Shown: piece after piece, positions 1,064 through 15,972 of the stretch
Position numbering within the stretch: the first letter of the stretch is position 1
Layout: every line of letters starts with the position of its first letter
The notes under the pieces: generated by a model
Told to the model about the DNA's origin: nothing
The model's input: the letters and a program-made list of their open reading frames with translations, nothing else
Databases searched by the model: none
Origin: a virus
IMG/VR virus record: IMGVR_UViG_3300009093_000136
Location: 1-21,384 of that record
DNA: 21,384 bases
Direction: 5' to 3' (one strand)
Program-made: the position numbers and the translations under genes

Positions 1064-1082
1064 TTTAAACCTCTTATTTAAA

Positions 1083-1250: not shown

Positions 1251-1258
1251 AATCACCT

Positions 1259-1807: not shown

Positions 1808-1856
1808 ACTCCTCCCCTATGAGTATTTAAAATAATAAGATAAGGTTCTAATATAT

Positions 1857-2282: not shown

Positions 2283-2292
2283 ATCTACCTCA

Positions 2293-2586: not shown

Positions 2587-3838
2587 ACCAAGATTCTCCA
2601 GTAGAAACTTCAATTTTAATAGGAACTTTAAATTCATAATTAAACTTCTCTATACTTAGTATAGCAACGTCTTCTAATAATGTCAAATCTTTTTTTGCAT
2701 CTTCTTCAAATTCTTTTTTACAATCCAACATCAAAGAATCATGAATTGTATTAATCATTAAATATTTATTTCTATTGTATATTGCTTTTTCTCTCCAAAA
2801 TTTACCAATCATACTTAAAACAATAGTTGCTGTAGCAAATCCTTGAGTTCTAAAATTTTGAATTTCATTGGGACTATAACTAGCCTCAGATTGCCATTTA
2901 AATTTAGGAGGATATTTTTTAAACTTATATATTCTTCCCCAAGGATCAGTATAAAAACCTTTTTGCTGAACCTCTGACCGTAACCAATCATAATATTGAT
3001 GCAATCGTGGGTATGTTTGACATCTTTTTTGTTTTAAATCTTTAACTTCTTCTATAGATAATCCAGAATTTTCACTTACTGTTTTATTCCCTGCACCATA
3101 TTGAACGCTAAAAGTAAAAACTTTTATTTGTCTTCTAGCTTCTTTTAATTCTCCAGTTTTAACTTTTTCAGAAATTAAATTATAATTTTGTTTAAGTTTT
3201 AAAGCTAAATTTTTTGTATGAGGATCAATATTATTTATAATATCATTTATTGCTTCTATATCTCCAGACATTTGAGCTTCTATTCTAGGTTCTATTCCAG
3301 AATAATCTGCAGAAATTAGAAGTCCTTTTGGAATAAATTGATCATTTTCAAATAAAGGTTTTCCATTAAATCTACTTATATAATGTTGAGTTACTTTTGA
3401 ATCTCCTTGAGGTACATTTTGAATATTCGGATTTTTACAACTGAGTCTCCCAGTAGCAGTGGCTGTAGTATTAAATTGAGAGTGAATTAGTCCATCAGAG
3501 TAAATTAGATTTTCTACAGATGTATAATAAGTACTTAATTGTTTTTTTAAATCTCTAAATTCTAATATTAGCTTGGCAATTTCACCAGAAATTCCTTTAT
3601 TTTTAATTAATACATTTAAAACTTTTTCTCCAACGGAATAAATTCCTTCCTTTTTTGTTTCCCAATCTTCTTTAGCTTTAACGCCTAATCCAGATATATT
3701 TTTCAAAATTTTAACTTTTTTAGTTCTTGAGTTTCCATTTTTATAAAATCCATTTTGTTGAATTTCATCAATTAATAAGAACCCTCCAAAAAAAAGAAGA
3801 CTTAAATGTTGTGGGGAGTTAACATTAAATTTAATCAT
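2576..3838 (-). CDS. DNA polymerase A, polymerase domain only (split gene)
   Basis: 420 aa carrying the palm, fingers and thumb of a family A polymerase without its exonuclease domain. Visible motifs: TATATGR at 125-131, motif A ADYSGIEPR at 177-185 (metal-binding Asp178), motif B (O-helix) ARRQIKVFTFSVQYGAG at 234-250 with Lys239, Phe243 and Tyr247, and motif C NTIHDSLML at 363-371 (Asp367). The residue equivalent to E. coli Phe762 / T7 Tyr526 is Phe243. The protein begins with FNVNSPQHLSLLFFGG, which is where the polymerase domain begins in intact relatives. The exonuclease domain is a separate gene (4064-4756), and 230 plus 420 aa roughly equals one intact phage enzyme. Its ATG lies 1 nt after the TGA of the intervening Cys-finger gene, so translation is probably coupled. 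Both parts presumably assemble in trans. Confidence 0.93.
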   Translation of the reverse strand: MIKFNVNSPQHLSLLFFGGFLLIDEIQQNGFYKNGNSRTKKVKILKNISGLGVKAKEDWETKKEGIYSVGEKVLNVLIKNKGISGEIAKLILEFRDLKKQLSTYYTSVENLIYSDGLIHSQFNTTATATGRLSCKNPNIQNVPQGDSKVTQHYISRFNGKPLFENDQFIPKGLLISADYSGIEPRIEAQMSGDIEAINDIINNIDPHTKNLALKLKQNYNLISEKVKTGELKEARRQIKVFTFSVQYGAGNKTVSENSGLSIEEVKDLKQKRCQTYPRLHQYYDWLRSEVQQKGFYTDPWGRIYKFKKYPPKFKWQSEASYSPNEIQNFRTQGFATATIVLSMIGKFWREKAIYNRNKYLMINTIHDSLMLDCKKEFEEDAKKDLTLLEDVAILSIEKFNYEFKVPIKIEVSTGESWYDL

Positions 3839-3839
3839 A

Positions 3840-4016
3840 TCACAATACCCATTTTATATAATAAAAAAATTTTTTATATTTCAGTAATTCATTTTTAAAT
3901 TGATCCTCTAAAGTCTCTTTTTTTATTTCATTGCAACTCTGACATATACTCGAAAAATGAGCTAATGGATGATTAGAAAGTACATACTTTTTATTACATC
4001 TAACACAGAAATTCAT
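3840..4016 (-). CDS. Cys-finger mini-protein lying between polymerase halves
   Basis: A 58-aa product if translation starts at ATG 4016 (MNFCVRCNKKY), which has GGAG 7 nt upstream; an in-frame ATG at 4037 would add 7 residues. Two CxxC knuckles (CVRC and CQSC) about 20 residues apart suggest one structural zinc site, followed by a Lys/Glu-rich helix (residues 32-50) and an aromatic tail. It fills the gap between the 3'-5' exonuclease gene and the polymerase-domain gene, ending 1 nt before the polymerase start. It may be a remnant of an HNH homing endonuclease that split the polymerase gene, or a zinc-binding bridging subunit. Neither is proven. Confidence 0.65.
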   Translation of the reverse strand: MNFCVRCNKKYVLSNHPLAHFSSICQSCNEIKKETLEDQFKNELLKYKKFFYYIKWVL

Positions 4017-4063
4017 TTTACTACTCCATTTATTCATTAGTTTTCTTTATAATAAAATTATAT

Positions 4064-4756
4064 TCATAACCAATAATCCCGAACTATATTTAATAATTCT
4101 TTTTCTTTCTCATGTAGCTTAATTTCTAACTCTACTTTATTCTTATCAAGAATTTTCCTATCAAGGTACATACCATTCATAGTCATTTCAATTGTAGATA
4201 GTAAGGCATCTTGTTGTAACTCTATAAAGTTAAATAACTTTAGTTCTTGAACTTTCTTGTATTGTTCTAGAAATATAACTTCAGTATCTAATACATCATC
4301 TTGAACATCAGTCAATACTAAATTTTTAGGTATTTCTGAAGTACTTTGCCCCTGATCCCAGTAGGATTCCATCAATTTTTCTCTTTCTATACACCCATAT
4401 TTGTTTACTGCAATGTCTCTCAAAGCTGGATATTTATGTTCTTGCCCTGTTAACATATACTCTACTAAAGATGTATCCCAAATTCTTCCCCCACGTTTAA
4501 AAAATTTCTGTAAATCATCCAAATGCCAGAACCATTGTAAATCATGACTTAAATTATGCCCTACTATTAAATCTTCATCAATCCTGAACTCTTTTAAAAT
4601 ATCAGGATAAATATATTGTGTCCAAAGTTCCTGAGTATTCTTTAATCCTATAGCAACTAACTCATCACCATTTAAAGGTGTCCCTGCTTCTCTTCCCATT
4701 TGTTTAGATTTTTCACTTACATTATTTTCAATGTCTATTACTAAATAAGGAATCAT
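4064..4756 (-). CDS. 3'-5' exonuclease domain of family A DNA polymerase (split gene)
   Basis: 230 aa DnaQ-like proofreading domain. Exo I is VIDIEN (Asp8, Glu10). Exo II is GHNLSHDLQWF (Asp72), with IWDTSLVEYML following as in phage polymerases. Exo III falls around TDVQDDVLDTEV (149-160); the Tyr expected there in T7-like enzymes appears to be Thr149, so proofreading strength is uncertain. The protein ends KELLNIVRDYWL, matching the last helix before the polymerase domain of T7-like enzymes, so the break lies at the domain border. Start: GGAG 6 nt before ATG, and the ATG directly follows the TAA of primase-helicase (TAAATG), implying coupled translation. It probably associates with the separate polymerase domain. 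Confidence 0.88.
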   Translation of the reverse strand: MIPYLVIDIENNVSEKSKQMGREAGTPLNGDELVAIGLKNTQELWTQYIYPDILKEFRIDEDLIVGHNLSHDLQWFWHLDDLQKFFKRGGRIWDTSLVEYMLTGQEHKYPALRDIAVNKYGCIEREKLMESYWDQGQSTSEIPKNLVLTDVQDDVLDTEVIFLEQYKKVQELKLFNFIELQQDALLSTIEMTMNGMYLDRKILDKNKVELEIKLHEKEKELLNIVRDYWL

Positions 4757-6439
4757 TTATCTCTCCAAAGTAAATAAATCATTTAAACTATTTAACTGTC
4801 CTGTGGATTCATTATAATATAGTTCATCTACATATCCAGATAATCCAGTAATTCTATTAGCTAAAACACTTAATTTTATTTTATTTTTCTCTCCTTCATC
4901 TACCATATTTCTTTCTACAGAGATCATTACATCACATAATTGTTCAAATGCAGCAGTACCTTTAAAATCCCGCATAGTTACTTTTCTTCCTTCACAATAA
5001 TCTTTCCCCATATCAGCCCTACTTAAATGACATACACACAGTATAGTAAATTTTAATTGTTTTGTCAATAATGTAAGACGTTTTAAAAACTTTTCTATAT
5101 CTTTTCTTTCCCCAGATTTTGAATCCATATCATAAATAAACATATGAATAGGATCAAGAATAATTAATTTACATTTATTTCCTAATACTAAAAATTTAAT
5201 AGCATTAATAATCTCATTAGAATCTAAGGTCATTTTACTTATATCTACTACTTTAATTCTATTAGATTTAATATATTTATTATAAGTATATTGAAGTCTT
5301 TCTTCTGAAACCAATTCAGGATTTTCTTTAAATTTATATAAAAGCATATTATTATCCAAGGCAACTAATCCTTGTACAAACTTTTTAGCAGACTCTTCCG
5401 CAGAACATACTCCTATATTTAATTTAGAATGTTTATCTATTAAATTTTTAATAAAGACTTGTTTACAGATAGTAGTTTTACCTATTTTTGCTCCTGCTCC
5501 TAAAAGCCATAATTCCCCTTCTTCTGTATTAATTCCTCTTAAATATTTATTTAAAATTGGCAATGATAAAGATAATCTGGGAGAATCTTTTTTAGAAATA
5601 TTTATCAAGGTTTGATTCTCTAAATAATCTGGTTCATATAATTGATAATTATTTAAATCTTCAAGTAATTCTAATTGTTTTCCTTTTTGAAGGTATTCAT
5701 TAGGATCTTTATATCTTAATTTAGTTATATAACATTTTCCGGGAGTAAATAATTTAGCAATTTTTATTTGAGTTTCTTGACCTACTTTATCATTATCAAA
5801 TACTAAAATAACCTTTTCAAATTGTTCTAAAAATTCTAAATGTCTTTTAATTTCAGACTCTGTTTGATCTCCTGCACCTGTAGAGATAGAGACTGTATTA
5901 ATAATTCCAATTTCTGCAAGTGACAAACAATCGAGTTCTCCTTCTGTAATAAAACACTCATTCTTTGTCGATCCTTTAAGTAAAGCTCCGTTAATTCCAG
6001 ATATAATTCTACCCTGTCCGAATAATTGCTTGTCATTTGAATTTTGTCTCCAAATAAAACTTTTATTATCAAGAAATCTAATTTTTTGACTAATTATATC
6101 TCCATTTTTATTAGTATAATTATAAATATGTACTTTTTTTCCATTTATATTAGAAGTCTGCATTAAATATTTTCTACAAATTTCTTCACTAATTTTTCTA
6201 TCCTCAAGATTTTCATAAACTCCATTAGTAATTAATTCATTAGAAATGATTTTACTTGTAATCAATTCTTTATCCATTTCTGTTCTTTTCGATTCATTAT
6301 ATTGCTCTTTATTATTGTTTCCTTTACATTGTGGAGTCATACATTTACTTTTTAATATACCAGTATCCGAATAAAACCAGCAAAGATTATTTTTTGAATT
6401 ACATTCAATACAATTAGTTCTTTTAATCGTGGCGCCCAT
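4757..6439 (-). CDS. Primase-helicase, T7 gp4-like
   Basis: 560 aa, close to the 566 of T7 gp4. N-terminal zinc-binding region: Cys10, Cys13, Cys33 and Cys38. A TOPRIM primase domain follows, with ITEGELDCLS (Glu166 and Glu168) and VFDNDKVG (Asp215, Asp217) for metals. The RecA/DnaB-type helicase domain has Walker A GAGAKIGKTT at 314-323, a Walker B strand LIILDPIHMF, and CVCHLSRAD as the conserved motif 3 region. The enzyme unwinds the fork and lays down RNA primers for the polymerase. It is intact, unlike the neighbouring polymerase. The start at 6439 lies 3 nt after the small zinc-finger gene and uses the TGAGGA in its end. The exonuclease gene follows directly. Confidence 0.95.
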   Translation of the reverse strand: MGATIKRTNCIECNSKNNLCWFYSDTGILKSKCMTPQCKGNNNKEQYNESKRTEMDKELITSKIISNELITNGVYENLEDRKISEEICRKYLMQTSNINGKKVHIYNYTNKNGDIISQKIRFLDNKSFIWRQNSNDKQLFGQGRIISGINGALLKGSTKNECFITEGELDCLSLAEIGIINTVSISTGAGDQTESEIKRHLEFLEQFEKVILVFDNDKVGQETQIKIAKLFTPGKCYITKLRYKDPNEYLQKGKQLELLEDLNNYQLYEPDYLENQTLINISKKDSPRLSLSLPILNKYLRGINTEEGELWLLGAGAKIGKTTICKQVFIKNLIDKHSKLNIGVCSAEESAKKFVQGLVALDNNMLLYKFKENPELVSEERLQYTYNKYIKSNRIKVVDISKMTLDSNEIINAIKFLVLGNKCKLIILDPIHMFIYDMDSKSGERKDIEKFLKRLTLLTKQLKFTILCVCHLSRADMGKDYCEGRKVTMRDFKGTAAFEQLCDVMISVERNMVDEGEKNKIKLSVLANRITGLSGYVDELYYNESTGQLNSLNDLFTLER

Positions 6440-6442
6440 AAT

Positions 6443-6568
6443 TTAATCCTCAGAAATATTTAAATCATTTAAATTATCTAAATATTCTTTAAAACATTTT
6501 GAACAAAATTCTTCATCTATTTGTAAATCTTTGTTAGTTAATTTTTTATCACAAGCGATACACCTCAT
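6443..6568 (-). CDS. Zinc-finger mini-protein (41 aa)
   Basis: The frame starts at ATG 6568 with GAGGG 8 nt upstream and stops with TAA 3 nt before the primase-helicase ATG. It begins MRCIACDKKLTNKDL and continues with CSKCF at about 22-26, so there are two CxxC pairs forming one treble-clef-like zinc knuckle, followed by an acidic helix (YLDNLNDLNISED). Small proteins of the MxCxxCxxxLT...C..CF pattern are common in T7-like marine phages next to replication genes; this is recalled from general knowledge. Function unknown; a replication-linked DNA-binding or adaptor role fits the position. Confidence 0.75.
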   Translation of the reverse strand: MRCIACDKKLTNKDLQIDEEFCSKCFKEYLDNLNDLNISED

Positions 6569-6591
6569 TTAAATACCCTCATTAAATATGA

Positions 6592-7209
6592 TTAATTATC
6601 ATAATTATCATCTACAACTGGATTTATATCTAACTCTTCTAATCTTGTTATACTTAATTTTTCTAATACTTTTCTACTTTCAATAATTAAATTTTCTATT
6701 AATTGAGCCTTTTTTAAATCTAAAATTGATTTTCTTTCTTCTTTTAAGGATTCAGTCCGGGAAAATTTATTTAAATCAATTAATTCAGCATTTTTCAGAA
6801 TTTGTTGTGTTATTAAATATTCTACTTCCTGAATTAACCCTCTAATGCCCAAATCACTTTGAATAGCCTTATCAATTAAATCTTCTTTAGGAACAAGAAA
6901 TTTTATATCTAGCCTTCTTAGTAATTCTATCCATTGATTTAATACAAAAAATTCAGAATTTAATATTTTTGTATATGTTTTTCTAGTTACTTCATCAAAT
7001 TCAATAATTTCTTGGATTCTTCCTAATAATTCTGGTAACATACCATAATTTTCTAAATCTTTTAATAAAATTTCTTCACTTTGTTTACTTTGATTAAATC
7101 CAATAGATTGATTTTTTTTGATTTTTAAATCTTGAAAAGCCCCAGCAAAAACAAACATCCATTCTTTAGTATTAACTTGTATTTTTAATTCTTTAAAATT
7201 AACATTCAT
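6592..7209 (-). CDS. ClpX-like AAA+ unfoldase, C-terminal part
   Basis: 205 aa from ATG 7209. The same frame stays open upstream to 7266 and encodes a further 19 residues homologous to ClpX (SRTLQSTILKYVEG), directly behind an in-frame TAA. Features in order: sensor 1 strand WMFVFAGAF (17-25), an IGF tripeptide (36-38) at the position of the ClpX loop that docks on ClpP, box VII GMLPELLGRI with probable arginine finger Arg64, and sensor 2 LGIRGLIQEVE with Arg123. These are the essential ClpX elements missing from the upstream fragment. The ribosome binding signal for 7209 is poor (GAGGG only 1 nt from ATG), so translation as an independent gene is doubtful. The product may depend on readthrough, or the gene may be broken. 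Confidence 0.8.
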   Translation of the reverse strand: MNVNFKELKIQVNTKEWMFVFAGAFQDLKIKKNQSIGFNQSKQSEEILLKDLENYGMLPELLGRIQEIIEFDEVTRKTYTKILNSEFFVLNQWIELLRRLDIKFLVPKEDLIDKAIQSDLGIRGLIQEVEYLITQQILKNAELIDLNKFSRTESLKEERKSILDLKKAQLIENLIIESRKVLEKLSITRLEELDINPVVDDNYDN

Positions 7210-7266
7210 ACCCTCTACATATTTTAAAATAGTAGATTGTAACGTTCTACTTATATTTTCACTACC

Positions 7267-7269
7267 TTA
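7267..7269 (-). other. In-frame TAA interrupting the ClpX-like gene
   Basis: The TAA (complement of 7267-7269) separates two parts of one continuous reading frame. Upstream codons end with the Walker B segment FIDEFDKFVTPIYS. Downstream codons continue GSENISRTLQSTILKYVEG without a frame change and with ClpX-like spacing. The only difference from an intact gene is this one codon. TAA, TAG and TGA all end other genes here, so general code reassignment is unlikely. Nonsense mutation, sequencing error or local readthrough remain possible. Confidence 0.9.
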
Positions 7270-7668
7270 TGAATAAATTGGAGTTACAAACTTATCAAAT
7301 TCATCAATAAATATTATTATTCTATTAAAATCTATTTTTTGAATAGACGAATTTAATTTAATACACTCTTCTTCTATTAAGTTTAAAAAACTTTTTCCAC
7401 TCCATCCTTCTTGACAAATAGCTTTTGAGTTAAGTTCTATTATCGGAATATTAAATATTTTAGCAGCTTCTCGTACTAAATATGTTTTTCCTACTCCTGA
7501 ATTACCTATAAATAAACAAATAGTACTTGAATTAAATTCACAAGCAAAATCTGGTGCATATTTTTTTATTAAATATTTATAATAAATCGTACAAAATTTA
7601 TCTATACTTTTGTCTTGGCCTAACACTTTTTGTTTTAAAGTTTTTCTCAGTTCTATCAAAGATTTCAT
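7267..7668 (-). CDS. ClpX-like AAA+ unfoldase, N-terminal part
   Basis: 133 aa, ending at the in-frame TAA. It lacks the zinc-binding domain of bacterial ClpX and starts directly at the AAA+ core: VLGQDKSIDKF (the conserved GQ.xAI region), Walker A GNSGVGKT at 55-62, pore loop 1 GWSG at 88-91 (GYVG in ClpX, here with Trp for Tyr), and Walker B IIIFIDEFDKF at 117-127. ClpX hexamers grip substrates with the pore loop and thread them into ClpP. Alone, this fragment lacks sensors 1 and 2, the arginine finger and the ClpP-docking loop. Those are encoded in the same frame just after the stop. The operon also contains a ClpP-like gene. AGGT lies about 8 nt before the start. Confidence 0.85.
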   Translation of the reverse strand: MKSLIELRKTLKQKVLGQDKSIDKFCTIYYKYLIKKYAPDFACEFNSSTICLFIGNSGVGKTYLVREAAKIFNIPIIELNSKAICQEGWSGKSFLNLIEEECIKLNSSIQKIDFNRIIIFIDEFDKFVTPIYS

Positions 7669-7701
7669 GTTTAATACCTGATATTATACTTCAATTACTT
7701 A

Positions 7702-7941
7702 TTAAATTTTATATTCTTTATAAAATTCATTATTAACATATACTTTAATTATAACATCATTTATTTTATTTTGTCTATAAAATTTAATATCTTTATTAAT
7801 TTGATCTTTAATAGAATTATTTTCTTTAATTCCTAAAAATTGATCATGAACTTGACTATAACTAGTATTAAATTTTTTATTATTTTTATATATTACATAT
7901 TTAATTAAAGGTACTACTTTAGATGAATTAGTTATTAGCAT
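7702..7941 (-). CDS. Hypothetical protein (79 aa)
   Basis: Not recognised. An in-frame ATG lies at 7953, but the ATG at 7941 (MLITNSSKVV) is preferred because GGAG stands 6-7 nt before it, inside the would-be first codons of the longer form. The product is rich in Lys, Asn and Ile, with alternating hydrophobic residues near the C-terminus (VIIKVYVNNEFYKEYKI) suggesting beta strands. It overlaps the small membrane gene upstream by 14 nt and precedes the ClpX-like gene by about 30 nt, so it is co-transcribed with it. A substrate adaptor role is only a guess from position. Confidence 0.55.
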   Translation of the reverse strand: MLITNSSKVVPLIKYVIYKNNKKFNTSYSQVHDQFLGIKENNSIKDQINKDIKFYRQNKINDVIIKVYVNNEFYKEYKI

Positions 7942-8068
7942 ATAATTCTCCATTAGGTAACTTAGATAATAAATTTAAATGTTGTCTATCTTTATTAATC
8001 GTATAAAATTGTGCAATAGCACATAATAATATAATTCCTAAAACGGCTAATAAATGAATAAATTTCAT
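7928..8068 (-). CDS. Small membrane or secreted protein (46 aa)
   Basis: The frame runs from ATG 8068 to TAA 7928, with GGAG 7 nt before the start. The peptide MKFIHLLAVLGIILLCAIAQ opens with a short basic segment and a strongly hydrophobic helix (residues 4-19), then a polar tail of about 25 residues (NKDRQHLNLLSK...). This looks like a single N-terminal membrane anchor or an uncleaved signal. The Cys16 context (ILLC) lacks the small residue a lipobox needs, so a lipoprotein is unlikely. Function unknown. Confidence 0.65.
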   Translation of the reverse strand: MKFIHLLAVLGIILLCAIAQFYTINKDRQHLNLLSKLPNGELYANN

Positions 8069-8086
8069 ATAAACTCCAAATTTAAA

Positions 8087-8761
8087 TTATTGATTTATAA
8101 AATGTAAGTATTCAACGATTTCTAAATGTCCATTTTCAGAAGCCCATCTTAAAGCATACTCATCTTCTGCATGAATATTAGCTCCTTTTTTAATTAAATA
8201 TTTAACTACTTCTAAATGTCCATATTGAGACGCCAGTCTTAAAGCATACTCACTTCCTGCATGAATATCAGCTCCTTCTTGAATTAAATATTTAACTATT
8301 TCTAAATGTCCATTTAGAGACGCCCGTCTTAAAGCATAATTATTTTCAGCATGAAGATCAGCTCCTTCTTGAATTAAATATTTAACTATTTCTAAATGTC
8401 CATTTAGAGACGCCCATTTTAAAGCAGCATTCTTTCCAGCATGAATGTTAGCCCCTTCTTTTACTAATTCCTTAATTACTGTTAATGTTATTTTTTTAAA
8501 TTTACCTAATATAATTTTATTAGCTTTATATTTAATTGGTTCTTTTGGATTTTTATATATTTTAGAATCTTTTAATAAACTTACTTCAGAAATATAACAC
8601 CCATAATCTAAAAAAGCTAAAATATCTTCTTTAGCAAAATAAATCCCTCCTGGTGTACAATCTCCTGAAGGATTAAATTCAATAGGATCTTGAATTATTC
8701 CTGGATTATAGGATAAATTATGATGTTTTTTCTCTTTATTAATTATTTTATAATATTTCAT
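8087..8761 (-). CDS. Ankyrin-repeat protein with Mimivirus-like N-terminal domain
   Basis: 224 aa. Residues about 1-85 form a distinct domain (HHNLSYNPG, FNPSGDCTPGGIYFAKED, ILAFLDYG, ANKIILGKF). Its pattern resembles the N-terminal domain that precedes ankyrin repeats in Mimiviridae proteins; this is recognised from memory and not checked. Residues about 96-221 hold four ankyrin repeats of 30 residues (YALRxASxNGHLEIVKYLIQEGADIHA), a 30-residue period like the giant-virus type. Ankyrin repeats bind proteins and are common effectors in bacteria and viruses of eukaryotic cells, but rare in phages. AGGAG precedes the start. It may act on host proteins or on the bacterium's own eukaryotic host; the latter is speculation. 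Confidence 0.85.
   Translation of the reverse strand: MKYYKIINKEKKHHNLSYNPGIIQDPIEFNPSGDCTPGGIYFAKEDILAFLDYGCYISEVSLLKDSKIYKNPKEPIKYKANKIILGKFKKITLTVIKELVKEGANIHAGKNAALKWASLNGHLEIVKYLIQEGADLHAENNYALRRASLNGHLEIVKYLIQEGADIHAGSEYALRLASQYGHLEVVKYLIKKGANIHAEDEYALRWASENGHLEIVEYLHFINQ
8267..8415 (-). repeat. Tandem 90-bp repeat inside the ankyrin gene
   Basis: The 59 nt at 8267-8325 recur identically at 8357-8415, an offset of 90 bp, which is one 30-residue ankyrin unit. Units further out are more diverged. Exact identity over 59 nt suggests recent duplication or gene conversion, so repeat number may vary between related phages. Confidence 0.85.
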
Positions 8762-8770
8762 TTTTAACTC

Positions 8771-9118
8771 CTAAACTTCTTTAATAAAAGTAAAAATCCT
8801 TTCACCAGTATTATTTAAATAAGTTTTCATTAATTTAGTATTACTAATATGTTTTTTAACTGTCTTTTCTTTTGTAGTTGTATAATATATGCAAATCCCA
8901 AAATGATCTTTCAACCAATTTTGAATTAAATCTAATGCTTCTTGTTTCGATATATTAGTTATTTGAGTATAATCTAACCATAAATCAAAGATTCCTTTAT
9001 AATCTTGTTTTTTTAATTTAACTGCTTTTTCTAATTTATGCACATCTGGTACCCATCTATAAAAATCTATTTGTGTAACTAATATATTATTTTCTAATTC
9101 ATTTAAGTCGGCGCTCAT
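8771..9118 (-). CDS. Hypothetical protein, first gene of leftward operon (115 aa)
   Basis: No family recognised. Charged and mostly helical in appearance: MSADLNELENN..., a WLDYTQ segment, KQEALDLIQNWLKDHFG, and a basic C-terminal half (TTKEKTVKKHISNTKLMKTYL). The start at 9118 has AGAGG 8 nt upstream. As the promoter-proximal gene of the replication operon it would be made first, a position often taken by host take-over or regulatory proteins. No helix-turn-helix or zinc motif is evident. Confidence 0.65.
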   Translation of the reverse strand: MSADLNELENNILVTQIDFYRWVPDVHKLEKAVKLKKQDYKGIFDLWLDYTQITNISKQEALDLIQNWLKDHFGICIYYTTTKEKTVKKHISNTKLMKTYLNNTGERIFTFIKEV

Positions 9119-9231
9119 ATTTGATACCTCTTAATTCTATTAATTCAATCTCTATAATTACAGTATATACCTATTTAATAAAAATGGGGGAAATAATAGA
9201 AATAAATTTATTAAAATAATATAAAGAATAG

Positions 9232-9260
9232 TTGACATTCCTCATTAAATATGTTATAGT
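9232..9260 (+). promoter_or_regulatory. Sigma70-type promoter P1
   Basis: TTGACA at 9232-9237 and TATAGT at 9255-9260 with a 17-nt spacer: a consensus -35 and a 5/6 -10. Expected transcription start is near 9267, exactly where the first stem (AGGTG/CACCT) of a long gene-free region begins. It points rightwards, away from the replication operon. The leftward promoter of that operon was not found; a TATACT at 9167-9162 on the minus strand has no matching -35. Confidence 0.85.
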
Positions 9261-9266
9261 AACTAA

Positions 9267-9845
9267 AGGTGTATATCACCTACCTATTTATTAAGGCCCC
9301 TTACCTTCTTGTTAAACTATAACAAGGTTTATCGGGGGATGCAAGGATGTAAACAAGTTTATATGGTGTAAATATCAATAAGTTAGAATTATTCTATTAT
9401 AGTTTATGCATAACTCAATTAATACTTATTATATTGATTATATTTATAATAATAATTTATTCTTTTATTGATTAGGTTTTCTCGTACCTATTTAAGTGCT
9501 TTAAATTACCCTTAGAGGGGATTTTTAGCACTTGAATTATAAATCGATTGGTTGACTGTCCAAGAAGAATAAAGCAGTCGTGTTACAGAGAATAAACTCT
9601 GATCTCCAGAAGGTGTTAAAAAGTGTAACCTATTGGAGATTAAATTATACGGGCGGTTCATCGATGCCTTTGCGAAACAGATTTAATCTGTAGAACAGCT
9701 ATTCGGTACTTGATAATTCTTAATAAATGGTAATTCCTGGGATTGGATTGGGTTCTTCAGTATGTATGGATAGCAGTTAGTCAAATAACTTATATAATTT
9801 GTAGTATATAGTTTATATGATTATACCATACTGGATAGGATTTCT
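9267..9845 (+). ncRNA. Candidate large structured non-coding RNA (about 570 nt)
   Basis: No credible gene lies in 9119-9911; this stretch follows promoter P1 and is full of stems. Seen by eye: AGGTG/CACCT (9267-9281), CTTGTTA/TAACAAG with loop AACTA near 9319-9337, AAGTGCT/AGCACTT enclosing AAAT/ATTT and CCC/GGG (9494-9533), GACTG/CAGTC (9554-9579), CAGAG/CTCTG (9586-9601), ATCTCCA/TGGAGAT enclosing AGGTgTTA/TAACCT (9602-9640), and ACAGA/TCTGT (9677-9691). The 9380-9480 part is very AT-rich and unstructured. Size, promoter and stem density recall phage-borne large RNAs such as GOLLD or ROOL, but no match to either can be claimed. No clear terminator is visible; the 3' end is set arbitrarily before the next promoter. 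A long leader or a replication origin is the alternative. Confidence 0.55.
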
Positions 9846-9864
9846 TTGTCTAAAATTTATAAAC

Positions 9865-9893
9865 TTGACAAAAGTTTTTTGTTTATATATAAT
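9865..9893 (+). promoter_or_regulatory. Sigma70-type promoter P2, full consensus
   Basis: TTGACA at 9865-9870, a 17-nt spacer and TATAAT at 9888-9893 match both sigma70 hexamers perfectly. The expected start near 9900 lies just before the ATG at 9912. It therefore rules out an earlier in-frame ATG at 9846 as the start of the first membrane gene. Confidence 0.9.
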
Positions 9894-9911
9894 ATCTTTA
9901 GAGGTATTTAT

Positions 9912-10103
9912 ATGAATAAATTTTTAGACTTTTTAGCAATATCATTTCTTATTGTGTTTTATGGTAGTTTTTTTGTAGCTCTTTTAGTGGGTTTACCCTT
10001 CCTTTTATTTGGATTAAAAGGAATTATAGTAATGTGTAGTGTATTATTTGTTATAGGAATTTTCTTTTGGTCTTTAGCAAGGCTATTAGCAGAGGATAAT
10101 TGA
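9912..10103 (+). CDS. Two-TM membrane protein, paralogue A (63 aa)
   Basis: MNKFLDFLAISFLIVFYG... with two hydrophobic segments, about residues 5-31 and 37-57, the gap between them carrying GLKG. The start at 9912 has AGAGG 7 nt upstream and lies about 12 nt after the predicted start of transcription from the full-consensus promoter. Strong early expression is expected. The next gene is a diverged copy: both begin MNKFLD.LAIS and keep a GI.GII turn and an F..W..R end. Small paired membrane proteins driven by a strong phage promoter suggest exclusion, membrane-targeted host control or holin-like activity; none is shown. Confidence 0.75.
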   Translation: MNKFLDFLAISFLIVFYGSFFVALLVGLPFLLFGLKGIIVMCSVLFVIGIFFWSLARLLAEDN

Positions 10104-10134
10104 ATGAAAATATTCTTAGAGGTTCTAGATTTAT

Positions 10135-10338
10135 ATGAATAAATTTTTAGATAGTTTAGCTATTTCAATCTTAATAGGATTTATGATACTTTTATGGATT
10201 TTTCTTTTCTTTATAATGCCTTATTTAACTGTGGGTATAGAAGGAATTATAGAAGTACATAGTATTTTATTCTTAGCTCTAGTTATAAATTGGTCTATTT
10301 TTAGAATTATAAAGAGTGGGATTTATTTAGATGACTAA
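10135..10338 (+). CDS. Two-TM membrane protein, paralogue B (67 aa)
   Basis: A tandem, diverged copy of the gene before it. Start regions are almost identical in DNA (AGAGG, then ATGAATAAATTTTTAGA) and the proteins share MNKFLD.LAIS, a central GIEGII turn and a WS..R motif near the end. Hydrophobic spans are about residues 9-32 and 38-58, followed by a polar tail (KSGIYLDD). The gene ends overlapping the next one (ATGACTAA), so they are co-translated. Function unknown; divergence between copies suggests different partners or evasion of host defence (inference). Confidence 0.75.
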   Translation: MNKFLDSLAISILIGFMILLWIFLFFIMPYLTVGIEGIIEVHSILFLALVINWSIFRIIKSGIYLDD

Positions 10339-10600
10339 ACAAAGAGATACATCAATATTACATTATTTATATGATGATTTTAAACTTCTAGAGACTTATT
10401 TAACTGATAATGATATAACTAATTTTGGTTTCTTTATAGGGCTTAAAAACATTCATACAGACGAAGAAAAGTTATTAGTAATGTCAGCAGGATCTGAAAT
10501 AAAAGTTTTACTAGAGAACTTAGAATGCCTTAAAAAGAATATTCTCAATAGATCTAATCAAAATAATAACATAAAACTTAAACCTGATAACTTACATTAA
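10331..10600 (+). CDS. Hypothetical protein (89 aa)
   Basis: The start codon overlaps the stop of the second membrane paralogue by 8 nt. The protein (MTKQRDTSILHYLYDD...) has a hydrophobic core segment FGFFIGLKNI, a beta-like EEKLLVMSAG and a helical LLENLECLKKNIL, then an Asn/Lys-rich tail. It looks like a small soluble alpha/beta protein. No family is recognised. It is the last gene of the unit transcribed from the 9865 promoter, and another promoter begins 8 nt after its stop. Confidence 0.6.
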   Translation: MTKQRDTSILHYLYDDFKLLETYLTDNDITNFGFFIGLKNIHTDEEKLLVMSAGSEIKVLLENLECLKKNILNRSNQNNNIKLKPDNLH

Positions 10601-10607
10601 AATATTC

Positions 10608-10636
10608 TTGACAAATATTAAATTATTTGTTATACT
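10608..10636 (+). promoter_or_regulatory. Sigma70-type promoter P3
   Basis: TTGACA at 10608-10613 and TATACT at 10631-10636, spacer 17 nt. Expected start near 10643. The transcript would open with a compact, stem-rich stretch of about 125 nt holding no gene. Confidence 0.88.
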
Positions 10637-10642
10637 GTAATA

Positions 10643-10769
10643 ACCTGACCTAGAAGGTTGAGAGACTTCACATTTATCTAGTCTCAAGCTAGGAACTGCT
10701 CAGGGTATAGGCTGAGAACCTAGTGGGAAGGTATAGTCCCACATAAATTAGTATAAATAAAGAAAAAGC
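10643..10769 (+). ncRNA. Candidate small structured RNA with twin loops
   Basis: Lies between two sigma70-type promoters. Stems seen: ACCT/AGGT (near 10648-10658), TTGAGA/TCTCAA (10658-10663 with 10682-10687), CTAGG/CCTAG enclosing CTCAG/CTGAG (10689-10723), and GTGGGA/TCCCAC (10723-10742). The last two hairpins share the loop sequence GGTATAG (10704-10710 and 10730-10736). No ribosome binding site with start codon is visible. The repeated loop suggests a protein-binding or loop-pairing element. No T-run terminator follows, so it may instead be the 5' leader of a longer transcript. Confidence 0.55.
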
Positions 10770-10798
10770 TTGACAAATAAAGTTTTTTATGCTATCCT
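10770..10798 (+). promoter_or_regulatory. Sigma70-type promoter P4
   Basis: TTGACA at 10770-10775 and TATCCT at 10793-10798, spacer 17 nt; the -10 is a weaker 4/6 match. It points at the zinc-ribbon gene at 10948 and leaves a leader of about 145 nt. Confidence 0.7.
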
Positions 10799-10804
10799 TA
10801 AATA

Positions 10805-10947
10805 TATTACCTTTATATAATTTTATGAATATGGATATCATTCAGGTCCTACGTATAATAAGAACTTAGTCAAGCAGGATCTTTTCAATCCTTCTGTAAA
10901 AGCTCAGGAGGATTTTCTTTATTTATTTATAGAGATAGGATATTAAA
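10805..10947 (+). other. Leader of zinc-ribbon gene with a start-less open frame
   Basis: No complete gene. One frame is open from 10821 to a TAA at 10944-10946, 41 sense codons reading like protein (YHSGPTYNKN, KQDLFNPSVKAQED) but with no ATG, GTG or TTG. It could be a decayed gene fragment. A strong AGGAGG near 10906-10911 has no start codon at useful distance. Together with the two elements upstream, this completes the gene-free 10601-10947. Confidence 0.4.
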
Positions 10948-11139
10948 GTGTACAAAACATTCAATTATAGTTGTAAAGATTGTAGTCTATCTGAAGATCG
11001 ATTTGTTCATCATTCAGAAGAATTAACTCAATTTTGTTTTAAATGTAATAAATTAATGACTAAAAATATGTCAACTCCTTTAGTGTTCGTGAAAGGACCT
11101 GCTGCTAATCCTTGTAAAGGCTCTACGAAATATTCATGA
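10948..11139 (+). CDS. Zinc-ribbon protein, FmdB-like (63 aa)
   Basis: Starts with GTG at 10948. Two knuckles, CKDC (residues 9-12) and CFKC (30-33), form a zinc ribbon around a beta hairpin, followed by KLMTKNMSTPLVFVKGPAANP. The CxxC...CxxC...S.P.VFVKG order is that of the small FmdB/zinc-ribbon proteins common in phages and bacteria; their biochemical role is not settled, and regulatory nucleic-acid binding is usually proposed. Downstream lies a gene-free, stem-rich stretch. It is transcribed alone from the 10770 promoter as far as can be seen. Confidence 0.75.
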   Translation: MYKTFNYSCKDCSLSEDRFVHHSEELTQFCFKCNKLMTKNMSTPLVFVKGPAANPCKGSTKYS

Positions 11140-11189
11140 TATATTCTATATAATCATTTAGATATAAATAATAAAGGTATTATATAAAT

Positions 11190-11460
11190 AAATATGTGCT
11201 GAGTTTAGGCCCTAAATAGTAGATGCGTAAGCACCTCCAAGGTATTAGATTTCATAACAACTAACAAGAACTAAACAGGTTTCACAGCAGTTCACTGAAT
11301 ATCAATACTCATAAATCTTAGGTAGACCTATAAATCTACCGGTTGTTTTATTAACCAGAACTATTTAGACTTTTCTATAGCTATAGAGGGTGGTGGGGGA
11401 ACAAACTGAATGGGTCCTATGGTCTTGAACTGGTCCCTATAGACCCACTATAAAAAATTA
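11190..11460 (+). ncRNA. Stem-rich gene-free region, possible RNA
   Basis: No gene is visible in 11140-11513. Pairings seen: TTTAGG/CCTAAA near 11204-11216, GGTAGA/TCTACC with an 8-nt loop (11321-11340), GGTT/AACC (11341-11356), and a long stem TGGGTC/GACCCA extended inward by TAT/ATA and further pairs (11411-11457). A G-rich run (GGTGGTGGGGG) lies near 11390-11400. A-rich sequence, not a T-run, follows the last stem, so it is not an ordinary terminator on this strand. No convincing promoter directly upstream. It may be an RNA element or an untranslated leader. Confidence 0.4.
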
Positions 11461-11513
11461 AAAATTTATTAAAATACTTAACTAGTTGATTCTTATACAG
11501 GTAAATATATAAA

Positions 11514-11699
11514 ATGGACATTCATCTACAAAATGAACTCTCTTTTATTCTAGAATCTAGAAAATATCAAATTAAAAACTTAGAAGAAGAAATAAAAAAT
11601 TTAGAAACTCATCAAATCAAACGTGAATATTATCAAGATAAAATAAAGACACTAAAAAAATTAATAAAACTCTTGTCTGATATAAAAGCCGAGGTATAA
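11514..11699 (+). CDS. Coiled-coil mini-protein (61 aa)
   Basis: MDIHLQNELSFILESRKY followed by heptad-like Lys/Glu/Leu/Ile stretches (IKNLEEEIKNLETHQIK and KIKTLKKLIKLLSDI). This is almost entirely a charged coiled coil, probably an alpha-helical hairpin or dimer. No Shine-Dalgarno better than a purine-poor stretch is visible, so expression is somewhat uncertain. No family recognised; small coiled-coil phage proteins often bind and inhibit host enzymes, which is inference only. Confidence 0.55.
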   Translation: MDIHLQNELSFILESRKYQIKNLEEEIKNLETHQIKREYYQDKIKTLKKLIKLLSDIKAEV

Positions 11700-11753
11700 A
11701 AAATTCATTAAAAGCTTCATCTATTTGAAAAATATAAAGATAATAGGTTTACA

Positions 11754-11782
11754 TTGCACTCCTTTTAATAATGTTATATACT
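11754..11782 (+). promoter_or_regulatory. Possible sigma70-type promoter P5
   Basis: TTGCAC (11754-11759) and TATACT (11777-11782) with a 17-nt spacer; expected start near 11789. It precedes the gene at 11830. The -35 is weaker than in the other promoters here, and the AT-rich setting makes chance -10 matches likely. Confidence 0.45.
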
Positions 11783-11829
11783 TATAATCTAGATATGTAT
11801 TATTTATATTTCATAAATCGGAGCTTTAT

Positions 11830-12015
11830 ATGACAAAGAAACAAAATACGACTTACATTCATAAGATGAATAATGAAACTTTAGAGGTTTTGGATACAGA
11901 ACTAGACGGATACATCAAATATGGATCTTACTGGGTAACAATAACATATAAAACAGGAATTCAAGTTTTTATTCCAAATCAACATATTGCTTGTATTAGT
12001 CGTAATTATAAATAA
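11830..12015 (+). CDS. Hypothetical protein (61 aa)
   Basis: MTKKQNTTYIHKMNNE... The second half alternates polar and hydrophobic residues (YGSYWVTITYKTGIQVFIP), consistent with a small beta barrel or sheet, followed by HIACIS. GGAG stands 7 nt before the start and a possible promoter lies just upstream. No family recognised. It is followed after 41 nt by another unknown gene in the same direction. Confidence 0.6.
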   Translation: MTKKQNTTYIHKMNNETLEVLDTELDGYIKYGSYWVTITYKTGIQVFIPNQHIACISRNYK

Positions 12016-12056
12016 AATTAGAAAATTATATAGAACTTTTAATAAAAGAGAAAAAA

Positions 12057-12461
12057 ATGAATTTTAAAAGAAAAGAAGGTAGTTTAATTCCTAACTATTT
12101 AACAGTATTAGAAAATAATTACCAAGAACAACTAGAATTTGCTTTAGGCTGGGAAAATATTAATAAGGAAATAATCAATAATGGGGCTTATGTACTTCTA
12201 CCTAATTCAGAAGATCCAACAACAGCTTTTCGATGTGTGAATGTAACTTATAGCACACGAGTAACTAAAGATTTATTCCATGAAGCTTTAACAGATTTTG
12301 TACAAACTCTGACTGAGGATTTTAAAGGAAGTCAGGTATCTTTTAGAAAACCTATATCTATTGAACAAGATGGTACTAATAATAATTATCGTATTATTGT
12401 TCGATTAGCAAAAATAGACACACATAAAGACAATCTTATTTCAACTGTAAAAACTAACTAA
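12057..12461 (+). CDS. Hypothetical protein (134 aa)
   Basis: A soluble, mixed alpha/beta-looking protein with MNFKRKEGSLIPNYLTVLENN at the start, a central FRCVNVTYSTRVTKDLFHEALTDF and a C-terminal strand region (NNYRIIVRLAKIDTH). A purine-rich AAAAGAGAAA precedes the ATG. Not recognised; no catalytic or metal motif stands out. Codon use and length support a real gene. It closes the block of small early-type genes before the lysis and packaging region. Confidence 0.65.
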   Translation: MNFKRKEGSLIPNYLTVLENNYQEQLEFALGWENINKEIINNGAYVLLPNSEDPTTAFRCVNVTYSTRVTKDLFHEALTDFVQTLTEDFKGSQVSFRKPISIEQDGTNNNYRIIVRLAKIDTHKDNLISTVKTN

Positions 12462-12484
12462 TAATCACTTCACGAGATGATAAA

Positions 12485-12580
12485 ATGACCGATTTATCTA
12501 AATTACCTCCTGCTGTACAAGCCCTTGTTAAAAAGGGGGTTCCTCTTCATAAAGCACTAGCAATGGCCGGAAAGAAATAA
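12485..12580 (+). CDS. 31-residue mini-protein
   Basis: ATG at 12485 to TAA at 12580: MTDLSKLPPAVQALVKKG, then VPLHKALAMAGKK. An amphipathic helix, a glycine break and a basic second helix. The composition is clearly protein-like and GAGATG lies a few nt upstream. Similar tiny helical peptides occur before lysis and packaging genes in some T7-like phages (general impression, not checked). Function unknown. Confidence 0.5.
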   Translation: MTDLSKLPPAVQALVKKGVPLHKALAMAGKK

Positions 12581-12582
12581 AA

Positions 12583-12821
12583 TCCCGTTCGGGAGTAATC
12601 CTGATTAAACCTAGACAAAAGTAATTAAATCTGCTAGATCGGGACTATTAACTAAATAATTTTAAATTAAAAACTACTCACGCTGGGAAGTTCAAATCTC
12701 TTAACTCTTTCACTGGGATGGTGTCCCGGGACAGCGCACCCCGAGTATAGAAGTTTATTAAACTGGTTGGACAGGAAATAAATATTCTACGGAGTTGGAA
12801 GATCTCTAGAGTATAAACTTC
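12583..12821 (+). ncRNA. Stem-rich gene-free region between mini-genes
   Basis: No gene in 12581-12860. Pairings seen: TCCC/GGGA around loop GTTC (12583-12594); TACTC plus CGCTG (12675-12685) against CAGCG plus GAGTA (12732-12747), a long-range two-part stem; a perfect 12-bp palindrome TGTCCCGGGACA inside it (12722-12733); and GAAGTTTAT/ATAAACTTC (12750-12758 with 12813-12821). GTTCAAATC near 12690 looks like a tRNA T-loop, but no acceptor or anticodon arms fit. Likely a structured untranslated RNA or leader of the genes at 12861 and 13012. Confidence 0.45.
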
Positions 12822-12860
12822 CATAAATTCAAGGAATTAATAAGTAGGAATAAAATCTAT

Positions 12861-13010
12861 ATGAAAGAAGAATACAAAACTAAACGCTCCCAGGCACTAA
12901 AAGAATTTATTGATTTTGAATTATATTTATCTAAAAAATATCAAATACCCCCGTACAGATTAATCCGGGATTTTATTGATTCTGCTGGTTTAAAAATAGA
13001 GGCACTTTAA
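12861..13010 (+). CDS. Small helical protein (49 aa)
   Basis: ATG at 12861, TAA at 13010, with AGGAAT about 10 nt before the start. The protein (MKEEYKTKRSQALKEF..., then YQIPPYRLIRDFIDSAGLKIEAL) is charged and helical, and the C-terminal half could be a small DNA-binding helix pair. It ends 1 nt before the ATG of the next gene, indicating coupled translation. Not recognised; a ribbon-helix-helix or similar regulator is possible but no clear motif was seen. Confidence 0.6.
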   Translation: MKEEYKTKRSQALKEFIDFELYLSKKYQIPPYRLIRDFIDSAGLKIEAL

Positions 13011-13011
13011 T

Positions 13012-13317
13012 ATGTTTTTAATCTCCAGTTTAAAAAGATCTTCTAAAAATATTCAAAACTTACCTTTTTTATTTGAAACATCAAATGAGGATGCATCCTA
13101 TCAAGATTATGCTCTATTAGGAAGGAATAAAAAAACCAATCAAATAGAACAAATAAATATCTTTAGAATATCCAAAGAAGATATTTATGGAAATTTATCA
13201 GATGAGTGTATCCGGAATCTAGCTGAAATATATTCTGATCTTACTTTATATAAAGTTGATGTATATACTAAAATGACTAAAATGTCCGATAACTCTATGA
13301 AAAAGTTATTGAAATGA
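13012..13317 (+). CDS. Hypothetical protein (101 aa)
   Basis: Starts 1 nt after the 49-aa gene. Contains ALLGRNKKTNQIEQINIFRISKED-like alternating strands in the middle and a Lys/Met-rich C-terminus (TKMTKMSDNSMKKLLK). Soluble, no membrane span, no known motif. Its place between regulatory-looking mini-genes and the holin suggests a late-gene accessory. Nothing more can be said. Confidence 0.6.
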   Translation: MFLISSLKRSSKNIQNLPFLFETSNEDASYQDYALLGRNKKTNQIEQINIFRISKEDIYGNLSDECIRNLAEIYSDLTLYKVDVYTKMTKMSDNSMKKLLK

Positions 13318-13360
13318 TTAGAAGAATAAAGAAATTATTTAATAATAGAAGAACTTTAAT

Positions 13361-13768
13361 ATGGATCCAATTACAGCCATTTCAGGCTTAGTTAGTACAA
13401 TAGTCAGTAGAATTTGGCCGGATAAAACTCAGTCAGACCGAGAAGCTTTTATGTTTGAGTTGACTAAAGAGTTAAACCAAACCCAGTTATTAACTAAACA
13501 AGATGACATTAATGTTCAAGAAGCAGCTAATCCTAATCTATTTGTCTCTGGCTGGAGGCCTATGATAGGTTGGATCTGTGGTGCAGCATTCTTATGGCAA
13601 TACGTTGTAGAGCCAATGGTGACTTATGGCTGCGCGATCACGGGGCACCCAGTACCTACCCTACCAGTGATTAATTCTGGTGATATGATGACCGTTCTAT
13701 TAGGTTTATTGGGCCTTGGAGGAATGAGATCATGGGAGAAAATAAATAATGTCCAGAATAAGCATTAG
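13361..13768 (+). CDS. Holin, GTA_holin_3TM-like
   Basis: 135 aa. An N-terminal soluble part with AISGLVSTIVSRIWPD and a helical KELNQTQLL region is followed by the family signature FVSGWRPMIGWICG (61-74), a first membrane span about 68-86, a short loop with HPVPTLP, a second span about 108-122, and the end GLGGMRSWEK (118-127). The GWRP...GLGG.R..EK pattern belongs to the three-TM holins found in gene transfer agents and podoviruses. They make membrane lesions that let the endolysin out at the end of infection. No endolysin is visible in the window, so it must be elsewhere. The gene overlaps the next one by 20 nt. Confidence 0.85.
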   Translation: MDPITAISGLVSTIVSRIWPDKTQSDREAFMFELTKELNQTQLLTKQDDINVQEAANPNLFVSGWRPMIGWICGAAFLWQYVVEPMVTYGCAITGHPVPTLPVINSGDMMTVLLGLLGLGGMRSWEKINNVQNKH

Positions 13769-14036
13769 AAAGTTTAAAGAACAAAAAAGAAAGCGTCGAT
13801 GTATTTTTAAAGGTCATGTGGAACCTTTGCATTTTAATACTATGCCAATTAACTTAAGAAGTTTAACTGATTGTAGTTATGTAAAAACTTGTAGAAGATG
13901 TAACAAAATACTAAAGACTCAATTAATAGAAGATCAAATTTTGTATCAAAAACAATATCATACTTATAAATGGTCTCCGGAATGTGAAACTTTATATGGA
14001 GTTACCGAAGAATATTTTAATTGTTTTATGAAGTAG
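13749..14036 (+). CDS. Hypothetical Cys-containing protein (95 aa)
   Basis: Start codon lies within the end of the holin gene, with GGGAGA about 8 nt upstream. A very basic N-terminus (RKFKEQKRKRRC) is followed by a CSYVKTCRRCNK segment and further Cys residues near the C-terminus (SPECE, NCF), which could make a small zinc site. TYKWSPECETLYGVTEEYF resembles no family I recognise. Lying within the lysis block, it might be a lysis accessory or an unrelated late protein. Confidence 0.6.
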   Translation: MSRISIRKFKEQKRKRRCIFKGHVEPLHFNTMPINLRSLTDCSYVKTCRRCNKILKTQLIEDQILYQKQYHTYKWSPECETLYGVTEEYFNCFMK

Positions 14037-14041
14037 TTTTA

Positions 14042-14314
14042 ATGGAAATGAATAGTTTAATATTTTATGTAATTCTTCCTATATGCTCTCTGATTATTAT
14101 TCCTTTAATCAGATATTTATATATAGGAATGCATGATTTTTTAATAAAAATTGAGGCGAGACTTAACAATCTTGAAATAGAAATGCAGACTAGGTTAAAC
14201 GAAGAAAAGACGAAGATTCTTGTACAGGAACGAATTGATCCTGTAAAGGAATCTTTGGATGATATAAAAGATAGAATCGATAAATTAACTGATTATTTAA
14301 TAAAAAGAAACTAA
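14042..14314 (+). CDS. TM plus coiled-coil protein, possible inner-membrane spanin
   Basis: 90 aa from ATG 14042 (an upstream TTG at 14021 would add 7 residues). One N-terminal membrane span (about residues 4-25, SLIFYVILPICSLIIIPLI) is followed by a long charged coiled coil (KIEARLNNLEIEMQTRLNEE... and KESLDDIKDRIDKLTDYL). This type II layout, next to a holin and just before the terminase genes, fits an i-spanin (Rz-like) that connects inner and outer membranes in the last step of lysis of Gram-negative hosts. No Rz1-like lipoprotein gene embedded in it was found, so the role is tentative. Confidence 0.6.
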   Translation: MEMNSLIFYVILPICSLIIIPLIRYLYIGMHDFLIKIEARLNNLEIEMQTRLNEEKTKILVQERIDPVKESLDDIKDRIDKLTDYLIKRN

Positions 14315-14950: not shown

Positions 14951-15724
14951 ATGTCAAGTATTCCAACTCAATTAAATTTAAATGAAATGTCTCAGTCAGA
15001 TCTATTAGATCTAGCAAAAGCATTTCAAGTACTTGATGAGAAAAAGCAGTATAATAAACTAGATTTTGTATTTCCTAGATACTTAGCTAATAAAGAAGGA
15101 TACAAAAAACATTTAATATTTATGAAGGCGGGTTCTATTTACAAAGAACGGGCTTTAATTGCTGGTAACCGTACAGGAAAAACATATACTTCTATGGCTG
15201 AAGTAGCTTTTCATGTAACTGGGAAATATCCAGAAGGTTGGGAAGGAAAAAGATTTGAAGGTCCGATAGAAGCTTGGGTGGTAGGTAAAACTCATGAAAC
15301 TACTAGGGATATTCTTCAAAAGTATCTTTATGGAAATTATTTAGATCCCGGAACTGGATTTATTCCTAGAGTGGATATTATTCGTAAAACTACTAAATCT
15401 GGTATTCAAGATGCAGTACAAGATCTTTATGTTCAGCATTATGATGAAAAGGGGCACAAAGACGGAATTAGTCATTTAAGTTTTAAGTCATATGTACAGG
15501 GTATAGAAGCCTTTATGGGAGCACAAGTGCACGTAGTAGGATTAGATGAGGAGCCTCCTGAGCGTGGAATATATTCAGAATGTGTGACTCGTACAATGAC
15601 TACACAGGGAATCATTCTTTGTACATTTACTCCATTAGAAGGATTGAGTGAAGTAGTTTTGAGTTTTCTTCCAGGTGGAAGGTTCCCAATGGGGGGAATA
15701 GGTCCAGTAGAAGAGGTTTTATAA
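14951..15724 (+). CDS. terL: Terminase large subunit, ATPase part (split gene)
   Basis: 257 aa containing only the packaging motor domain. Walker A AGNRTGKT at 71-78, then GPIEAWVVGKTHETTRDI, Walker B HVVGLDEE near residue 199 with the catalytic Glu after it, and the coupling motif LCTFTPLEG near 222-230. It stops after GGIGPVEEVL. Intact relatives continue from that GIGPV region into the KFVV...W.D.PHL start of the nuclease domain, which here is a separate gene (15973-16725). 257 plus 250 aa make a normal full-length large terminase. The stop overlaps the next start (TAATG) and the last codons contain an AGAAGAGG ribosome binding site for it, so the split looks stable and not like fresh decay. 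Confidence 0.92.
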   Translation: MSSIPTQLNLNEMSQSDLLDLAKAFQVLDEKKQYNKLDFVFPRYLANKEGYKKHLIFMKAGSIYKERALIAGNRTGKTYTSMAEVAFHVTGKYPEGWEGKRFEGPIEAWVVGKTHETTRDILQKYLYGNYLDPGTGFIPRVDIIRKTTKSGIQDAVQDLYVQHYDEKGHKDGISHLSFKSYVQGIEAFMGAQVHVVGLDEEPPERGIYSECVTRTMTTQGIILCTFTPLEGLSEVVLSFLPGGRFPMGGIGPVEEVL

Positions 15725-15972
15725 TGTCTAGACCAATAACGCAGTCTGAATATTATCAAACTCACTTTTATCATGGAAAGAAAGATCGTAATAGATTTTA
15801 TCATGTTTTAGAATGTGATATTAGACTATTATCTAGTGAAATTCTAAGACTTTCCAAAATGCCTTATTCCTCTTGGAGAAATAAAGAGAAAATCATATCT
15901 TTAGATAAGCAAATTCAATATATGGAAGAATTATTAGCTGCTTATGAAAGAGATCAAAAAAGGGGATCCTAA
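15724..15972 (+). CDS. 82-aa protein inserted between the two terminase halves
   Basis: Not recognised. MSRPITQSEYYQTHFYHGKK, then a helical region rich in Leu, Ile, Lys and Glu (DIRLLSSEILRLSK and KQIQYMEELLAAYERDQKRG) likely to form a helical hairpin. It begins at the TAATG overlap with the ATPase gene and ends with TAA directly before the ATG of the nuclease gene, in the same frame as the nuclease; readthrough of that TAA would give a fusion. Its position in the linker of the terminase suggests either a helper that joins the two halves or a foreign gene that split the terminase. No intein, LAGLIDADG, GIY-YIG or HNH motif is visible. Confidence 0.75.
   Translation: MSRPITQSEYYQTHFYHGKKDRNRFYHVLECDIRLLSSEILRLSKMPYSSWRNKEKIISLDKQIQYMEELLAAYERDQKRGS

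Follow-up and report, generated by a model that had tools for sequence, protein, structure and literature searches.

Positions 9267–9845 of the window, a linear virus record in IMG/VR of 21,384 bases (28.6% GC) which was analysed over its whole length, appear on balance to encode an untranslated structured transcript made by the host RNA polymerase, which would serve either as a functional RNA or as a long leader. A stand-alone non-coding RNA is suggested tentatively and is slightly preferred to a long structured leader at the start of the early transcript, which is rather doubtful. The structured-RNA reading is based on a cluster of promoters, the absence of coding potential, the folding z-score, the raised GC content and a positional counterpart in the related phage contig L057.

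The source of the window is an unclassified AT-rich phage, and the candidate RNA region sits between its two divergent gene blocks. The minus-strand block (1–9118) encodes a PD-(D/E)XK exonuclease, ClpP, a family A DNA polymerase, a T7-type primase-helicase and an ankyrin protein, and the plus-strand block starts at 9913 and ends with the terminase, portal and further structural genes. The ankyrin-repeat gene (8087–8761, minus strand) lies close to the control region and may hint at a host rich in ankyrin proteins. Several genes of this phage are split. On the minus strand (2576–4756 and 6592–7668) the DNA polymerase A is divided into an exonuclease ORF, a small zinc-finger-like ORF and a polymerase ORF, and two ORFs share a Clp-type AAA ATPase. 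The large terminase (14951–16725) has its ATPase and nuclease on two ORFs separated by a small one, a split found identically in three phages, namely the window phage, L002 (3198–4941) and L057 (8881–10753); in the relative L064 the terminase is one ORF with an apparent intein. The features of the control region are as follows, with values in brackets giving pair probabilities:

8771–9118, minus strand: gene of 115 aa at the left border of the control region, with a homologue (29–30% identical) in the equivalent place in L057.
9232–9260, plus strand: sigma70-type promoter identified by consensus match, TTGACA-17-TATAGT, with TG before the −10 region.
9267–9860, plus strand: entire ORF-free putative structured transcript, delimited by fold and coding statistics, 3′ end undefined.
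9267–9281, plus strand: hairpin AGGUG-UAUAU-CACCU of 5 bp at the predicted 5′ end (0.93).
9297–9338, plus strand: two predicted nested stems, CCCCU/GGGGG (0.77) and UCUUGUUA/UAACAAGG (0.91).
9374–9472, plus strand: predicted AT-rich arm of 99 nt with 13% GC and the base stem AUCAAUAAG/UUUAUUGAU (0.91).
9490–9537, plus strand: predicted long hairpin AUUUAAGUGCU...AGCACUUGAAU with inner stems, the core of the segment with the lowest z-score of the record.
9547–9665, plus strand: predicted multibranched domain closed by AUUGGU/AUCGAU and GACUGUCC/GGGCGGUU, with outer stems at 0.36–0.75 and inner hairpins 9586–9601 and 9602–9640 at 0.95–0.99.
9677–9691, plus strand: predicted hairpin ACAGAU-UUA-AUCUGU (0.93).
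9865–9893, plus strand: full-consensus promoter TTGACA-17-TATAAT, positioned for the small, membrane-protein-like ORFs 9913–10103 and 10135–10338.

Both of the promoters that an earlier sequence-only reading had placed before and after the region are present, and for the first of these a +1 near 9267 is plausible from its position. Four plus-strand TTGACA promoters (at least 10 of 12 consensus positions) were found within the 1.8 kb of 9119–10947, where shuffled sequences gave an expectation of 0.11 and a maximum of 2 (1000 shuffles), placing the computed cluster far beyond chance. No terminator-like site was detected on the plus strand between 9282 and 9865, which leaves the 3′ end of the candidate transcript undefined from sequence; the sole terminator-like call inside the region is the +1 hairpin itself, and the first good site downstream of the candidate RNA lies at 10887–10914. 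The same reading had given the RNA its own transcription unit, of which the promoter is borne out by consensus and enrichment and the terminator before the next promoter is missing. A separate transcription unit is at most suggested, as no terminator lies ahead of the 9865 promoter, and a stand-alone RNA and a long leader are inseparable, since transcription begun at 9232 would not stop at this promoter.

The stretch of approximately 580 nt following the 9232 promoter is without coding potential, in agreement with its description as gene-free. The only frame of at least 40 aa within 9267–9845 starts with ATG, has 49 aa and lies on the minus strand (9512–9661), stops number 13–20 per frame in all six frames, and the codon score of the region equals that of shuffled sequence. 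A protein-coding or pseudogene reading was rejected on the basis of the six-frame stops and the shuffled-like codon statistics.

Folding was assessed against dinucleotide shuffles. The plus strand of 9267–9860 gave −145.6 kcal/mol with a z-score of −3.14, none of 100 shuffles being as stable, and plus-strand positions 9451–9600 gave a z-score of −5.66, the lowest among 568 segments of 150 nt taken from both strands of the record. Nine helices of at least 5 bp were predicted whose pair probability averages 0.85 or more. One is the stem at the predicted +1 (0.93), which had been described beforehand and is directly visible, as are the promoter and the ORF-free stretch. The sequence-only reading had counted at least seven stems of 5 bp or more, a number that was reached here but is common by chance, with nine or more such helices occurring in 17 of the 100 shuffles; the folding energy is beyond chance and the number of stems is not. 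It should also be noted that the minus strand of the region folds as well (z-score −3.39), so the folding signal is not strand specific and alone is silent on whether RNA or DNA is concerned. The dyads showed G-U against A-C at 18:9, near the expectation from composition and without an excess of wobble asymmetry between the strands of the region. Dyads acting at the DNA level fit equally, given the fold of the minus strand and this near-expected ratio.

In AT-rich genomes, structured RNAs are known to stand out by a raised GC content. By computation, the GC content is 36% in the blocks 9267–9373 and 9473–9720 and 39% in 9545–9693, compared with an average of approximately 27% in the genes of 1–13768 and 12–20% for the majority of the remaining short gaps in the record's right half, the AT-rich arm being the exception inside the region. 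Three other segments with raised GC, all ORF-free, are located at 10640–10760 (40%), 11180–11440 (36%) and 12680–12860 (38%). The first belongs to a second ORF-free stretch (10601–10947) with promoters at 10608 and 10770, successive hairpins (40% GC), a terminator-like hairpin (10887–10914) and a fold z-score of −3.5 (20 shuffles), 10640–10760 alone giving −1.3; a zinc-ribbon gene follows in the window and in L057, where it is likewise preceded by a promoter and approximately 470 ORF-free nt. The other two are inner parts (36–38% GC) of the ORF-free stretches 11140–11513 and 12590–12860, which gave neither an Rfam match nor significant folding on the plus strand.

To place the region among its relatives, about 180 loci were collected by protein-led searches. 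Only one of them, L057 (IMGVR_UViG_3300002460_000047, 48.5 kb), is close to the window phage in both halves, with identities of 59% for the C-terminal part of TerL, 42% for the primase and 41% for a holin-like gene. In an alignment of the TerL C-terminal part from 80 loci the neighbour gene was common to L057 only, and in a primase alignment this contig was again the sole match among close relatives. The 115-aa border gene has its homologue there with an E-value of 2e-10 (pairwise comparison). Beside that homologue lies a gap of 1.3 kb with a promoter, TTGACA-17-TACACT, at 7303–7331, followed by 468 ORF-free nt whose fold (z-score −4.54) is more stable than those of all 100 shuffles. A 10-bp hairpin begins at about +3 of this stretch, which has 39–44% GC compared with 34.6% for the locus; its helix count was reached by 4 of 100 shuffles. 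The stretch runs directly into a gene at 7806 with no other strong promoter between. The holin-like gene comes directly after the stretch in L057 and 3.5 kb further on in the window. Against the RNA reading, the L057 stretch has no detectable sequence similarity to the window RNA and was missed by a covariance model built from the single sequence of the domain at 9545–9693. The two genomes have a similar layout, with the homology of the RNAs themselves unproven.

The searches of IMG/VR, of phage records and of the accessible genome contigs yielded no homologue that could be aligned with the region. The covariance model of 9545–9693 matched only itself among 95 records; a match in L172 (E 8.8, sharing GATGCCTYTGCGAA) was treated as chance. 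A blastn search of the region against 50,697 phage records gave only chance matches of 30–35 nt, including those to phage K polA (E 0.6), and the exact 16-mer GGGCGGTTCATCGATG had 12 matches in IMG/VR, most of them in GC-rich contigs, and in no case did the similarity extend into the flanks. Searches with the neighbour proteins, the portal and the TerL N-terminal part gave one relative, L002, a 5.4-kb contig ending short of the region. Smith-Waterman comparison of all window gaps with those of the relatives returned only long AT-rich alignments of low identity, and the gaps of L002, L058, L061, L064, L069 and L080 were rejected as counterparts due to weak folding, repeats or the lack of a shared neighbour gene.

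Two related phage contigs were found to carry other RNA features. In L013 (IMGVR_UViG_3300032893_000039; TerL 44% to that of the window phage), five tandem modules starting with GATGACG(T/C)AG at 929–1480 lie directly upstream of a TROVE (Ro60) gene (1498–2862). At least one module matches the Y RNA-like YrlA model below the cut-off (32 bits, E 9e-5) and two have tRNA-like T- and D-arm sequences, so that the locus looks like a Ro60 gene with a multi-module Y RNA array. In L081 a Twister-P5 ribozyme was detected above the gathering score (1381–1437, minus strand, 47.2 bits), with two ORF-free gaps near it.

Under the preferred reading of a structured transcript, the host RNA polymerase would transcribe from the 9232 promoter as rightward phage transcription starts, and the transcript would fold into a multibranched structure comprising the +1 hairpin, the AT-rich arm, the long hairpin at 9490–9537 and the domain at 9547–9665. 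The folded transcript would then work as RNA, either standing alone or as a leader running into the small genes after 9913. We infer the transcription and its timing, the formation of the fold and that RNA rather than DNA matters here. The large structured RNA of the sequence-only reading retains its strong promoter, ORF-free stretch and better-than-chance fold, with the raised GC content and the L057 counterpart in its favour, and loses the support of the stem count and the GOLLD/ROOL resemblance.

One branch of this explanation taken alone, namely that the region acts only in cis, as the untranslated 5′ part of the first transcript to run rightward, and gives no RNA product of its own, for example an antitermination leader comparable to the put RNAs of phage HK022 or a translation-control leader, is possible but somewhat unlikely. 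It agrees with the lack of a terminator ahead of the downstream genes and with the way in which the L057 stretch continues into its gene, but 580 nt is long for a leader, and the first genes have a full-consensus promoter at 9865, making a leader from 9232 redundant for them. It is quite improbable that the region has no function and is leftover or drifting sequence, such as the remains of a lost gene, with a fold that is a chance extreme. Such a view is favoured by the choice of one stretch by eye from 21 kb, by the lack of detectable conservation and by a stem count inside the shuffle range; however, the lowest z-score of 568 segments falls within a stretch chosen beforehand, the GC content is raised where that of most short gaps elsewhere has sunk to 12–20%, phages carry little DNA without use, and a similar layout occurs in L057.

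A replication origin or control region acting at the DNA level between the divergent blocks is the main rival, though an unlikely one, modelled on the primary origin of T7 or on ColE1 RNA II, in which the transcript would open the AT tract at 9374–9472 and prime T7-type replication, with the dyads serving as protein sites. The promoter followed by an AT-rich tract, as in a T7-type transcription-primed origin, is found here (9232–9260; 9374–9472), the tract being a candidate DNA-unwinding element, and the phage encodes replication proteins of the T7 type (primase-helicase, family A polymerase and exonuclease). Both strands fold equally beyond chance, the GC skew turns at the region from about −0.2/−0.3 to +0.3, and the ORF-free region of L058, in a similar position, contains repeated GTAGATA-like words as judged by eye. 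The turn in skew is, however, confounded by the change in gene orientation, a repeat search of 9100–9920 gave no iterons and only two weak two-copy families, no comparably AT-rich tract follows the L057 promoter (by eye), and the raised GC content of the folded blocks is left unexplained.

It is conceivable, although doubtful, that the window phage and L057 represent a podovirus-like lineage in which the divergent control region yields, from a host-type promoter, a large structured RNA of a new class, approximately 450–600 nt long, whose fast sequence evolution would have left only position and folding; the window phage would carry up to three further non-coding segments with raised GC besides it. 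A further large structured phage RNA located in a control region with a T7-type replisome, away from tRNA islands, would suggest a different role, for example control of early transcription or priming of replication. The region would also provide a small RNA-rich control region suited to deletion.

Among known systems, the T7 primary origin and ColE1 RNA II, a structured transcript of about 555 nt, resemble the region in that a transcript and an AT-rich tract come after a promoter, and T7 also in the type of replication genes. The promoter in the window is host-type and not T7-type, unlike that of the T7 primary origin, and an origin at this site is putative.

To our knowledge, large structured phage RNAs are few (GOLLD and ROOL) and of unknown function. 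The resemblance to these two that had been put forward did not hold up in the Rfam search suggested as its check: none of 4227 families, including group I and II introns, tmRNA, RNase P, riboswitches and Y RNA, matched 9100–10000 at the gathering score or at an E-value of 10, and nothing was found in the other window gaps at gathering and permissive thresholds. The 21.4-kb window, a fragment, contains no tRNA or tmRNA. Membership of ROOL, an RNA characterised by a homo-oligomeric nanocage, was rejected since its covariance model was unmatched at both thresholds and no tRNA occurs in the fragment. The likeness is in the size of several hundred nt, the location in a phage, the absence of a gene inside and the multibranched fold predicted for the window RNA, which differs in lying in a divergent control region with promoters, without tRNAs or an Rfam match; ROOL is often but not universally near tRNA islands (PMC12286853). 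GOLLD, also a large phage RNA without a gene, was rejected since neither its model, with the conserved 3′ region, nor tRNAs are present in the window; many GOLLDs exceed 800 nt and their 3′ region is universally conserved (PMC12286853). A comparison in size is offered by the abundant long non-coding RNAs lnc001 (13595–14229, about 635 nt) and lnc002 of Staphylococcus phage K, identified from RNA-seq (PMC9241854). These are intergenic lncRNAs of a virulent phage and of similar size; they are shown by RNA-seq and lie near tRNA genes, whereas the window RNA is predicted only, and their sequence relation to it was examined only through the blastn search of phage records. The lncRNAs of phage K thus provide a precedent for a phage RNA of similar size outside a known family.
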